A DNA stretch of 64,000 bases. It comes from an uncultured Porphyromonadaceae bacterium. Lineage in GTDB: Bacteria; Bacteroidota; Bacteroidia; Bacteroidales; Muribaculaceae. Both the position numbers and the translations under genes were made by a program. Shown here in pieces: positions 38,412 through 50,369 of the stretch; positions within the stretch are counted from its first letter, which is position 1; each line of letters opens with the position of its first letter. Below the pieces are notes generated by a model. It was given only the letters and a program-made list of their open reading frames with translations. It had not been told where the DNA came from and searched no databases. The stretch is from positions 1-64,000 of the forward strand of contig CAMCDS010000006.1 of assembly GCA_945873625.1 (NCBI GenBank), written 5' to 3'.

Positions 38412-40469
38412 TCAGAGAAGCTCTATCGAACGCGAGATAAACGCTTTCATGGCCTCGCCTTTAAGCAGGTTGGCGCGTAAAAGCGCGAGGTCGATTATCT
38501 GACCTACACGGGGAGCCGATGCGGCATATTCAGCCACGGCCTTCTCATTCTCAGCCCGTGTGTCGGCTATCTTCTTCTCGATGTCGGCCGCCTCGTCTTC
38601 GAGACGCTTCTTCTCGTCGGCCTGAATCTCCTTGTCCGAAATACGGCTTCTTGTCTCGCCGAGCTTACTGTCGAGCTCCGCAATGCTGTCGAGTCCGGGT
38701 TTCACCTTGTCGGTGAGGGCAGCCACAGCCTTGTCGATTTCCTCCTTCACCACAGCCTGGTCGGTATTGACCACGAGCGAGTAGGAGTCGGGCATGCTGG
38801 CGAAGAAAGCTCCGGCGCCGGGCTGCATGGCGGCCATGTCCTTCATTCGCCTCATGTACTCGTTCTGAGTTACTGTGGCGGGAGCGGCTGCGGCCGACAC
38901 GGCCTCGAAGCTGACCACAAACTGCGAGTCGCCTACTGCCGGAAGGGCGCTGCGGAAGAGATTGGTGGCTATGTCGAGCTGCAGGGCGTCGAGTCCGGCA
39001 TTCTTCAGGTCTTCCTTCGGGATAAGGCGTTCGGGTATATCGGAATCCACACGCACGAAGCGCGTCTTCTCGAGCTTGCTCTCGAACATAGCGAGCAGAT
39101 GGTTGTCGAGCTGTCCGGTCATCTCAAGCACGGAATACCCCTTGTCGCGTGCGCCCTCGATATATGAGTATTGGGCGGCAGGATCGGTCGAATAGAGATA
39201 TACGACGCTACCCTCGCGGTCGGTCTGCTCCGCCTCCACCAGCGCACGGTATTCGTCGAGAGTATAGTATTTGCCGTCGGTGGTCTTGAAGAGGAAGAAC
39301 TTTTTGGCAGCCTCATAAAACTTCTCGTCGGTGAGCATGCCGTAGATGATGAAGATTGAGATGCTGTCCCATTTCTCCTCGAATCCCTTGCGGTCGGCGG
39401 CAAACATCTTGTCGAGTTTCTCGGCCACCTTCTTCGATATATAGGAAGATATTTTCTTCACCTGCGAGTCGGCCTGCAGATAGCTTCGGCTCACGTTGAG
39501 CGGGATGTCGGGCGAATCGATGACGCCCTGCATGAGGGTCATGAACTCGGGCACCACACCCTCCACCTGGTCGGTAACATACACCTGGTTGCAATAGAGC
39601 TGTATGCGGTTGCGCTGAAGCTCGATTTCGTTCTTCACCTTCGGGAAATAGAGGATTCCGGTGAGCGTGAAAGGATAGTCGACGTTGAGGTGAATCCAGA
39701 ACATCGGGTCTTCCTGTCCGGGCATCAGCTCGCGGTAGAAGCGCAGATAATCCTCGTCGGTGAGGTCGGAGGGCTTGCGTGTCCAGAGCGGCTCGGTGGC
39801 ATTGACCACGAGGTCGCGGTCGGTGTCGGTCATCTTGCCGTCTTTCCATTCCTGCTCCTTGCCGCAGACTACGGGGAGCGGCAGGAAACGGCAGTATTTC
39901 TTCAGCAGGGCTACAATGCGTTCGTTCTCGAGAAACTCTTTGCTGTCGTCGTCGATATAGAGAATCACGTCGGTGCCGCGGTCGCTCTTCTCGATCTCCT
40001 TCATCTCGTATTCGGGCGAGCCGTCGCAGCTCCATTCAACACCCTTGACGCCCTCCTTATACGACAGGGAGCGGATCACCACTTTCTTCGAAACCATGAA
40101 GGCCGAATAGAAGCCGAGGCCGAAGTGGCCGATGATGCTGTTGGCTGTGTCTTTGTATTTTGCCAGAAACTCCTCGGCACCCGAGAAAGCTATCTGGTTG
40201 ATGTAGCGGTCGATGTCGGCGCTGTCCATGCCGATGCCGCGGTCGCTGACGGTGAGCGTGCCGGCCTCCTTGTCGACCTTCACCTCCACCTGCAGCTTGC
40301 CGAGCTCACCCTTGAAGTCGCCGAAGGTGGCGAGGGTGCGCAGCTTCTGACTCGCGTCGATGGCGTTGCTCACCAGCTCGCGCAGGAAAATCTCATGGTC
40401 GCTGTAAAGAAATTTCTTGATTACGGGGAAGATATTTTCGGTTGTAACCCCGATTTTACCTGTTGCCAT
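38412..40469 (-). CDS. htpG: Chaperone HtpG (Hsp90)
   Basis: ATP-dependent Hsp90 chaperone, cytosolic, 685 residues. The N-terminal GHKL ATPase has ELVSNAIDASQKL (Bergerat box N), VSDRGIGMD and GHFGLGFYSAFMV. The middle and C-terminal domains are complete. It diverges from clpC. A near-consensus sigma-54 promoter lies 45-60 bp before the start codon. Confidence 0.96.
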   Translation of the reverse strand: MATGKIGVTTENIFPVIKKFLYSDHEIFLRELVSNAIDASQKLRTLATFGDFKGELGKLQVEVKVDKEAGTLTVSDRGIGMDSADIDRYINQIAFSGAEEFLAKYKDTANSIIGHFGLGFYSAFMVSKKVVIRSLSYKEGVKGVEWSCDGSPEYEMKEIEKSDRGTDVILYIDDDSKEFLENERIVALLKKYCRFLPLPVVCGKEQEWKDGKMTDTDRDLVVNATEPLWTRKPSDLTDEDYLRFYRELMPGQEDPMFWIHLNVDYPFTLTGILYFPKVKNEIELQRNRIQLYCNQVYVTDQVEGVVPEFMTLMQGVIDSPDIPLNVSRSYLQADSQVKKISSYISKKVAEKLDKMFAADRKGFEEKWDSISIFIIYGMLTDEKFYEAAKKFFLFKTTDGKYYTLDEYRALVEAEQTDREGSVVYLYSTDPAAQYSYIEGARDKGYSVLEMTGQLDNHLLAMFESKLEKTRFVRVDSDIPERLIPKEDLKNAGLDALQLDIATNLFRSALPAVGDSQFVVSFEAVSAAAAPATVTQNEYMRRMKDMAAMQPGAGAFFASMPDSYSLVVNTDQAVVKEEIDKAVAALTDKVKPGLDSIAELDSKLGETRSRISDKEIQADEKKRLEDEAADIEKKIADTRAENEKAVAEYAASAPRVGQIIDLALLRANLLKGEAMKAFISRSIELL

Positions 40470-40513
40470 ATCTATATGTAGTTTTTGTTGATTTTTCTAT
40501 TCAACCGTCTTTC

Positions 40514-40529
40514 TACAAACGGCGTGCCA
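40514..40529 (-). promoter_or_regulatory. Sigma-54-like promoter of htpG
   Basis: On the minus strand TGGCACG (40529-40523), 4 nt (CCGT), TTGTA (40518-40514). The -24 element is perfect; the -12 element has GT where consensus has GC. Predicted start of transcription near 40503, giving a leader of about 34 nt. No TAnnTTTG box is seen upstream of htpG. Confidence 0.6.
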
Positions 40530-40636
40530 ATTCACTCGGATAAACAATTTCGGGCATGATTGTGTCGACTCATTATTCTTAAAAGTGCTGAATATTAATG
40601 TAAAATATTTAACACCCGGGGCGCGACGGCACAATT

Positions 40637-40652
40637 TGGCACGGTAATTGCA
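40637..40652 (+). promoter_or_regulatory. Sigma-54 promoter of clpC
   Basis: TGGCACG (40637-40643), GTAA, TTGCA (40648-40652): a perfect match to the -24/-12 consensus with correct spacing, 90 bp before the clpC start codon. The predicted transcription start is near 40663. No TAnnTTTG promoter was found in the same gap. Confidence 0.85.
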
Positions 40653-40742
40653 TTGAACCCGACTGAACATCGGCGTGTCTGCACACATTTATATATTGTA
40701 GACTATACGCTTACTGACACGAAAAAAACATATACACGATAA

Positions 40743-43298
40743 ATGAGAAACGAATTTTCAAAGCAATTCAGCGGCGTGCTCGAAGGGGCGCAGGCCGAGG
40801 TGAAGCGGTTTGGCTCCCCGATGATAGTGTCGGAGCACTTCCTGCTCAGCTCGCTTCGCGACTCCGGAAGCACGGTGATGAAGATACTCGACAAAATCAA
40901 CGTCGACGTAGCCGCCCTCGTCAGCGATCTCGAGCACTATCTCGAAAGCGCCGAAATCAACGAGGAGGCCACCACCCTTTTCGAGCAGCGCTACCGGATT
41001 GCCCTCTCGGCCATTCGCCATCTGCAGCTGGCAACCTCCGAGGCCCGGCAGCTCAACGCTTCGGCCATCCTCGGCGAACATCTGCTCCTGGCGCTCATCC
41101 ACGACAGCCGCTCGATGGACAGGCCGTTCCTTAAGCAGATAAAAGACAAATATCTCAACTTCGACATATCGATACAGATGCTCGGCAGCGAGCGTCCCGA
41201 AAGCCGCGGATTCTCAACGGGCGACAATGACGACGATGATGACGACGACTACGACATGCCGCCCGGAGCTCCCGGTCGCCAGTCGGGCCGAGGAGCTTCG
41301 TCGCAGAAACCGGGCGCTCAGAAACAGAGTTCCGACACTCCGGCCCTCGACAAGTTCGGCTACGACATGACCCGCGCCGCCCTCGAAGGGAAGCTCGACC
41401 CCGTGGTCGGGCGTGAGAACGAGATCGAGCGTCTCGCCCAGATACTCTCGCGCCGCAAGAAGAACAACCCCGTGCTCATCGGCGAACCGGGCGTCGGCAA
41501 GTCGGCCATCGTGGAGGGCCTGGCCCTGCGCATCATCCAGCGCAAGGTGAGCCGTCTGCTCTTCGACAAGCGGGTGGTGAGCCTCGACATGGCCGGACTC
41601 GTGGCCGGCACGAAGTACCGCGGCCAGTTTGAGGAGCGCATCAAGGCCGTGCTCGACGAACTGAGCAAAAGCCCCGACGTGATTCTCTTCATCGACGAGA
41701 TTCATACCATCGTCGGCGCGGGTGGAGCACCCGGCTCGATGGATGCCGCCAACCTGCTGAAACCCGCCCTCGCACGCGGAGAGATACAGTGCATCGGTGC
41801 CACGACGCTCGACGAATACCGGCAGAACATCGAGAAAGACGGTGCCCTCGAACGCCGCTTCCAGAAGGTGATAGTGGAGCCTACCTCCCCTGAGGAGACC
41901 CTCGAGATTCTCCGCAACGTGAAGGAGAAATACGAGCAGCACCACAACGTTACCTACACCGACGAGGCGCTCAAGGCTTGCGTGGCCCTCACGGAGCGAT
42001 ACGTCAGCGACCGCAATTTCCCCGACAAGGCCCTCGACGCCCTCGACGAGGCCGGCTCGCGCGCCCATATCAACAACATCATCGTGCCCGAGGAGATCGA
42101 GAAGCTCGAGAAGCAGCTCGACGAGACCAATCAGGCGAAGCTCGAGGCCGTCAAGGCACAGAACTTCGAGCTGGCCATCCACCTGCGCAATCAGGGCGAG
42201 GAGGAGAAGCAGCGCCTCGAGACGATGAAGAAGGAATGGGAGGAGCGGCTCGACAACGACCGTCAGGAGGTCGACGACGAGAAGGTGGCCGAAGTGGTGG
42301 CCATGATGACCGGCGTCCCCACCCAGCGCATAGCTCAGGCCGAAGGATCGCGCCTCCTGCTCATGGGCGAGTCGCTTAAAGGCTCGGTAATCGGACAGGA
42401 CGACGCGATCAAGAAGACCGTCAAGGCCATTCAGCGCAACCGCATCGGCCTCAAAGACCCCAACAAGCCGATAGGCACCTTCATGTTTCTCGGCCCGACT
42501 GGTGTCGGAAAGACTCTGCTCGCCAAGAAGCTCGCCGAATACCTCTTCGACTCGGCCGACGCACTCGTGCGCGTCGACATGAGCGAGTTCATGGAGAAGT
42601 TCACCGTCAGCCGCCTCGTGGGTGCCCCTCCGGGATACGTGGGCTACGAGGAGGGAGGACAGCTCACCGAAAAGGTGCGCCGCCACCCTTACAGCGTGGT
42701 GCTCCTCGACGAGATCGAGAAGGCTCATCCCGACGTGTTCAACCTCCTGCTACAGGTGATGGACGAAGGCCGGCTCACCGACTCTTTCGGACGCAAGATC
42801 GACTTCAAGAACACTATCCTCATCATGACGAGCAACATCGGCTCGCGCCAGCTCAAGGAGTTCGGTTCGGGCGTCGGCTTCAACACCGGCGGCAACCAGA
42901 AGGACATGGCCCACGGCGTCATCTCGAAGGCACTTAACAAGGCGTTCTCTCCGGAGTTCCTCAACCGCGTAGACGACATAATAATGTTCGACCAGCTCGA
43001 GCGTGAGGATATCTTCAAGATCATCGACATCGAGCTCAAAGACTTCTTTCTGAGAATCAAGAAGCTCGGCTACAACCTCGAACTGACTCCCGAGGCCAAG
43101 GACTTCATCGCCGGCAAGGGCTACGACCGCAACTTCGGTGCCCGACCGCTTAAACGCGCCATCCAGAAATATCTGGAAGACGAGCTGGCCGAACTGATGC
43201 TCCGCCTCAACGCCGAGGGTAAGATCGGAGGCACCATCAAGGCAGCCTACTCCGAAGGCGACGACAAGCTGACCATCAGCTATGCCGACGTAATCTGA
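40743..43298 (+). CDS. clpC: ClpC-type AAA+ unfoldase
   Basis: Hexameric unfoldase feeding ClpP (851 residues). Clp_N double repeat (about 1-150); an Asp-rich/Gly linker ([16 protein letters not shown] region, about 160-200); first AAA+ with GEPGVGKSA (about 246). A middle region with a UVR-like segment follows ([18 protein letters not shown], about 465-485), which supports ClpC over ClpA/ClpB. The second AAA+ has GPTGVGKT (about 582) and the C-terminal domain is complete. SGVGFNT near 710 carries the VGF tripeptide that docks on ClpP. clpP is not adjacent. A perfect sigma-54 promoter is upstream and a strong terminator downstream. Confidence 0.94.
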
Positions 43299-48323: not shown

Positions 48324-48339
48324 TGGCACGCTATTTGCT
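48324..48339 (+). promoter_or_regulatory. Sigma-54 promoter of groES-groEL
   Basis: TGGCACG (48324-48330), CTAT, TTGCT (48335-48339): perfect -24/-12 consensus and spacing. The predicted transcription start is near 48350, about 70 nt before groES. The gap 48253-48419 contains no CIRCE repeat (TTAGCACTC/GAGTGCTAA) and no TAnnTTTG box. Confidence 0.85.
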
Positions 48340-48419: not shown

Positions 48420-48692
48420 ATGAAGATTCAGCCACTGGCCGATCGCGTCCTGATCGAGCCCACCGCCGCAGAGGAAGTTACCATGGGCGGCATCATCATC
48501 CCCGACTCCGCCAAGGAGAAACCCCTCAAAGGCAAAGTGCTGGCCGTAGGCGGAGGCACCAAAGACGAGGAGATGGTACTCAAACCCGGCGACGAGGTGC
48601 TCTATGGCAAATATGCCGGCACCGAAATCGAGTTTGAGGGCACAAAATACCTGATGATGCGTCAGGCCGACGTGCTCGCCGTAATCAAATAA
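48420..48692 (+). CDS. groES: Co-chaperonin GroES
   Basis: Heptameric lid of the GroEL chamber; 90 residues, normal length. It begins [13 protein letters not shown] and has the mobile loop [16 protein letters not shown] (about 16-31) that docks on GroEL. It is followed by groEL after 45 bp. Confidence 0.97.

Positions 48693-48734: not shown

Positions 48735-50369
<1,635 letters not shown>

Follow-up and report, generated by a model that had tools for sequence, protein, structure and literature searches.

The window, by which we mean the whole 64,000-nucleotide stretch of DNA that was analyzed, carries htpG and clpC as a divergent pair. The htpG gene (38412–40469, minus strand, ATG at 40469) encodes an Hsp90 of 685 aa that scores 613.6 bits against the NCBIfam model NF003555 (cut-off 371). 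The clpC gene (40743–43298, plus strand, ATG at 40743) encodes a ClpC-like Clp/Hsp100 unfoldase of 851 aa, in which Pfam identifies a Clp_N domain and two AAA modules. Also present in the window are groES (48420–48692, plus strand, 90 aa) and groEL (48738–50369, plus strand, 543 aa), and the products of htpG, groES and groEL all pass curated NCBIfam family models. The clpC product reaches neither the ClpA nor the ClpB equivalog cut-off, and its UVR motif is below the Pfam cut-off. With every NCBIfam equivalog below its cut-off, the designation ClpC depends on the earlier note, on the weak UVR motif and on similarity. The closest relatives named ClpC, at 74–75% identity, come from uncultured Muribaculaceae and Porphyromonadaceae records, and the genome is accordingly Muribaculaceae-like.

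Both divergent genes are preceded by a sigma-54-type −24/−12 element. That of clpC (TGGCACGGTAATTGCA, TGGCACG-N4-TTGCA, 40637–40652, plus strand) has 12 of 12 letters of the consensus TGGCAC-N5-TTGCW, in which GG and GC are 12 bp apart. That of htpG (TGGCACGCCGTTTGTA, TGGCACG-N4-TTGTA, 40529–40514, minus strand) has 11 of 12, with GT at −12, where TTGT replaces the consensus TTGC; TTGT is found in the sites of relatives too. The earlier note had given these letters and coordinates correctly, the non-consensus −12 of htpG included, and its spacing of about 107 bp between the two −24 boxes agrees with the 107 bp that we measured (40530–40636). This interval is AT-rich (38% GC) and contains a GTCGAC palindrome. 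A comparable element lies upstream of groES (TGGCACGCTATTTGCT, 48324–48339, plus strand).

Chance and conservation in the −24/−12 elements

Raw counts of the motif do not exceed chance; placement and conservation do. With up to two mismatches, 10 matches occur in the window compared with 9.5 expected, and with up to one mismatch the genome has 22, versus 29 for a reversed control pattern. The perfect matches in the genome number three, and each is located 46–90 bp before an ATG, namely those of clpC, groES and an unnamed ORF of 139 aa. The element of this ORF (L008:1501–1516, G000:C1:121130) is found about 4 kb from rpoN, and the protein could not be assigned to any Pfam or NCBIfam family.

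Conservation was evaluated in 30 Muribaculaceae genomes, five of them from the genus of the window (g1). We scored the best −24/−12 match within 300 bp of each start, with GG and TG fixed, and took at least 11 of 12 letters as the criterion. At clpC, 29 of 30 family genomes reach this level (dinucleotide shuffles 3/600), and in the remaining one a contig end cuts off the upstream region; at htpG, 24 of 28 do, and three of the misses score 10 (dinucleotide shuffles 1/560). Corresponding values are 24 of 30 for groES (one miss scores 10; shuffles 8/600), 25 of 30 for dnaK, whose misses are exactly the five g1 genomes (shuffles 6/600), and 14 of 29 for grpE (shuffles 4/580). None of 161 control ORFs of at least 200 aa in the same loci reaches it, and these were taken in all six frames, so some of them are not genes. 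More broadly, 8 of 9 Bacteroidales-labelled clpC loci have an element with at least 11 of 12 letters (12 of 80 named loci were scored), as do 6 of 29 dnaK loci from outside class Bacteroidia in a phylum-wide set (loci from 30 of 61 genomes). The earlier note had made its proposal depend on conservation of the two dinucleotides among relatives, and this held in part: the GG of −24 is kept, whereas the C of −12 is often T.

In the genome of the window, sigma-54 elements occur before clpC, htpG, groES, clpP and a degP/HtrA-like gene, with a weaker one at grpE; clpB lacks such an element and that of dnaK is degenerate. The proposal that clpC, htpG and groESL belong to one sigma-54 chaperone regulon is consistent with these results, given where the two elements lie and how well they are conserved. 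One-mismatch elements were observed 36–112 bp before clpP, a DegP/HtrA-like protease gene, a C10 peptidase gene and an unnamed ORF of 488 aa or more (L025, L011, L018 and L021).

HrcA/CIRCE and RpoH systems govern groESL and dnaK elsewhere. CIRCE/HrcA control was rejected here, as the window has no CIRCE inverted repeats at up to three mismatches. Also rejected were a sigma-70-type promoter as the cause (two found, compared with 0.8 expected) and an Rfam element (no matches).

A receiver-less activator and TGNCA arrays

The genome encodes one copy of rpoN and has six matches to PF00158, of which one is strong (216.1–218.7 bits, the single match at E ≤ 1e-30). This protein of 399 aa has 24 residues before its AAA+ domain, lacks a receiver, and combines a GSFTGA loop with a Fis-type HTH (HTH_8, 53.3 bits), and thus has the features of a sigma-54 activator (bEBP). 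A gene for LptE (PF04390) is found downstream. At least one PF00158 protein at E ≤ 1e-30 occurs in 79 of 79 family genomes and, by our count, exactly one in 40 of the 79; the extra activators that we inspected in the remaining half or so are receiver-AAA+-HTH response regulators (L060–L082). In 8 of 11 Bacteroidia genomes (14 sampled, 11 fetched), the activator gene shares its strand with groES and is located 1,754–2,902 bp upstream of it (L420, L422–L425 and L427–L429). Among the best 25 NCBIfam models, no equivalog cut-off for a named activator (NifA, NtrC, PspF, ZraR and others) is reached. PspF is among the closest solved relatives and, like the LptE-linked protein, is an AAA+ sigma-54 activator with an HTH and no receiver domain. 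However, the latter scores 277.9 bits against the NCBIfam PspF cut-off of 443.55, starts with 24 residues ahead of its AAA+ domain, has a linker of variable sequence, and differs from PspF in its targets.

A blind dyad search upstream of 129 elements recovered GACA-N3-TGTC in 15 sequences and in none of the shuffles, and EM refinement of the dyad gave cTGmCAwwwTGkCAg (in-sample). In 122 upstream regions from genomes outside g1, TGNCA half-sites number 610 versus 146 expected, −24 boxes included. Mean numbers of half-sites upstream of the −24 box are 3.96 for groES, 4.40 for dnaK, 3.50 for grpE and 3.96 for htpG, compared with about 0.7, and 0.84 for clpC, compared with 0.62. We defined an array as at least three TGNCA half-sites in 50 bp and counted those within 350 bp of the gene. 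Outside g1, arrays occur at dnaK in 23 of 25 genomes, groES in 22 of 25, grpE in 17 of 24, htpG in 13 of 23 and clpC in 1 of 25, compared with 11 of 161 control ORFs; across the family, clpC is array-free in 29 of 30 genomes. Of 12 genomes from outside g1 that have a single activator, 11 carry arrays at dnaK and 10 at groES.

Outside the discovery genomes, 14 dnaK loci have on average 3.71 half-sites compared with 0.64 after shuffling, and eight groES loci, selected by a looser core rule, have 4.12 compared with 0.61. The core has at least 10 of 12 letters in 13 of the same dnaK loci and at least 11 of 12 in just three, because −12 is mostly TTGA. Half-sites are phased near 10.5 bp (pooled p = 0.0015; htpG p = 0.01), without significance for dnaK, groES or grpE individually. 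Exact TGNCA-N3-TGNCA occurs 17 times in the genome of the window versus 11 for the control, and no well-placed sigma-54 element was found at the six of these sites that were read. Cores without arrays are closer to consensus than those with arrays (10.59 versus 10.00), a trend that comes mostly from differences among the genes (p = 0.11 once clpC is left out); for single genes, it is seen in htpG only (p = 0.026) and is reversed in grpE. We propose TGNCA arrays as the likely sites of the receiver-less, LptE-linked activator.

A Bacteroidota sigma-54 chaperone regulon that includes Hsp90 and Clp ATPases has already been published, as the available portions of two papers indicate (PMC9723704, PMC12316311). 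The sigma-54 (SM4) protein-quality regulon of Flavobacterium psychrophilum is described there with mapped start sites that have −24/−12 motifs, and SM4 motifs precede groES-groEL, dnaK, grpE-dnaJ, lon, htpG and clpB; Table 2 of the paper includes a sigma-54 regulator with LptE, at a locus number near groES (PMC9723704). This organism has three PF00158 proteins, and the available text neither assigns the activator nor names an enhancer (PMC9723704). The window differs from the system described there in the divergent orientation of clpC and htpG and in their lack of arrays. The predicted Bacteroidota regulon is enriched in GroEL, GroES, GrpE, DnaK, HSP90 (COG0326) and COG0542 in a motif census, in the available parts of which no chaperone activator or enhancer was seen (PMC12316311). 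Bacteroidota are not mentioned in the available parts of PMC3162934, nor RpoN in those of PMC7366714. In the open-access literature, with subscription journals outside the scope of the search, we found nothing that names the LptE-linked activator or its enhancer.

Divergence in the genus of the window

Within g1, arrays at up to 350 bp are found at dnaK in five of five genomes and at groES in one of five, and are absent from all five at clpC, htpG and grpE. Upstream of g1 dnaK, a conserved block (AACTTTTAGCACGCTATTTGTTTATA) corresponds to the −24/−12 element, with GG changed to AG (TAGCACG; TCG in G057) and the TGNCA array kept (L137, G000:C33 and the four other members). Given that dnaK arrays remain in five of five members, the ability to read TGNCA has probably been kept in the genus.

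The activator itself differs in g1. Glu386 of the recognition helix is present in 29 of 29 family relatives outside the genus, and the five g1 members have I, I, V, E and L; among 42 others, 41 have E at this position and one has Q. The HTH has an identity of 0.58 within g1 versus 0.80 within the others, and the AAA+ domain 0.88 versus 0.86. On these identities, divergence of the g1 activator is confined to the HTH and the AAA+ domain has not diverged. The member G057 keeps both the Glu and the groES array, and its arrays at htpG and grpE are absent.

We hypothesize that the LptE-linked activator, whose gene lies elsewhere in the genome of the window, opens the conserved sigma-54 core promoters of both htpG and clpC, likely without a local enhancer, and we put the probability of this reading at roughly 0.45. 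Activators without a working DNA-binding domain act from solution in other phyla. Under the proposed mechanism, stress would switch the activator on and TGNCA arrays would be bound by it, but in g1 it would reach most core promoters from solution. A joint rise of htpG and clpC would then be due to their common use of sigma-54 and of one activator, not to a bound enhancer. For the genus, the best reading is that its sigma-54 chaperone regulon may have turned largely enhancer-independent. Only tentatively, and with some doubt, do we extend this to a wider account. In that account, the folding-stress response of Bacteroidia would operate via one receiver-less, LptE-linked activator that reads TGNCA-N3-TGNCA; in one Muribaculaceae genus this protein would have drifted off the code (Glu lost, HTH diverging), with htpG, clpC and groESL fired enhancer-free in a regulon that is becoming enhancer-independent.

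Chaperone induction in Bacteroidota is poorly settled, and a candidate activator and a candidate enhancer code can now be named. A genus that keeps the core promoters but loses most of the arrays is a natural experiment, which bears on how far a sigma-54 promoter needs its enhancer. If our reading is true, the array-free htpG-clpC pair would represent an uncommon form of a stress circuit that is already known.

Alternatives to the proposed enhancer-free activation

The earlier note had instead suggested that one activator bound between the −24 boxes could serve both genes, and this we could not support. TGNCA half-sites are absent from 40530–40636, as is TGNCA-N3-TGNCA even at one mismatch, so we rejected a common enhancer of the type defined by the family motif, and clpC is array-free almost throughout the family. 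A search for shared motifs covered 21 upstream sequences from the genus and the genome of the window, and no other motif stood out, albeit at low power. A single activator between the promoters might still drive both through a genus-specific enhancer, which would escape recognition because the recognition helix of the activator has changed. The divergence of the HTH in the genus would fit this, as would the AT-richness and the GTCGAC palindrome of the interval, but no dyad or word in the 21 upstream sequences is clearly above shuffles (again at low power), and the TGNCA arrays at dnaK are kept in all five members. The gene layout also argues against it. Among 28 genomes with htpG, clpC is followed in tandem by htpG in 12, the genes are apart in 13 (counting G009, where a contig end cuts the clpC upstream region) and, in two more, they share a strand and are no more than 3 kb apart; the divergent layout was seen in the genome of the window alone. 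With this layout in 1 of 28 genomes, the htpG-clpC pair is no conserved bidirectional unit, and we regard a genus-specific shared enhancer as unlikely.

The arrays might belong to another regulator, the LptE-linked activator working array-free everywhere. One candidate is a second PF00158 match (67 bits; L002:1111–2196, G000:C1), which has a receiver-like start and an AAA+ domain without GAFTGA. Among the best 120 of 2,565 matches, its relatives mostly have HTH_8, and the copy in the genome of the window stops before this domain. The match is activator-like and not an unrelated AAA+ protein; it could be a partner, a competitor or the array reader in relatives. The presence of HTH_8 in relatives and its absence from the genome of the window would suit the array-reader role, but throughout class Bacteroidia arrays are found in company with the LptE-linked gene, and we consider a different reader quite unlikely.

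Looping offers another route, in which the core promoters work and the activator, or a partner, is brought in from a distant array. TGNCA clusters do occur 370–510 bp before groES in two genus members, but in the genus as a whole clusters at more than 350 bp are about as frequent as the background of 0.217 per kb, by our estimate, and in the genome of the window neither htpG nor clpC has a cluster within 1,500 bp, which makes looping improbable. That the elements are chance matches or relics, with a housekeeping promoter driving htpG and clpC, is very improbable: the genome-wide motif count is indeed not above that of the reversed control, but conservation in 29/30 and 24/28 genomes versus 0/161 controls speaks against it, as does the lack of an exact TAnnTTTG housekeeping box in 40470–40742.

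A further match, TGGCACGTTATTTGTA, is located at L016:1501–1516 (G000:C7:46100) with no clear gene behind it. The sequence CGGCACAATTT stands before this match, and likewise before the clpC element.
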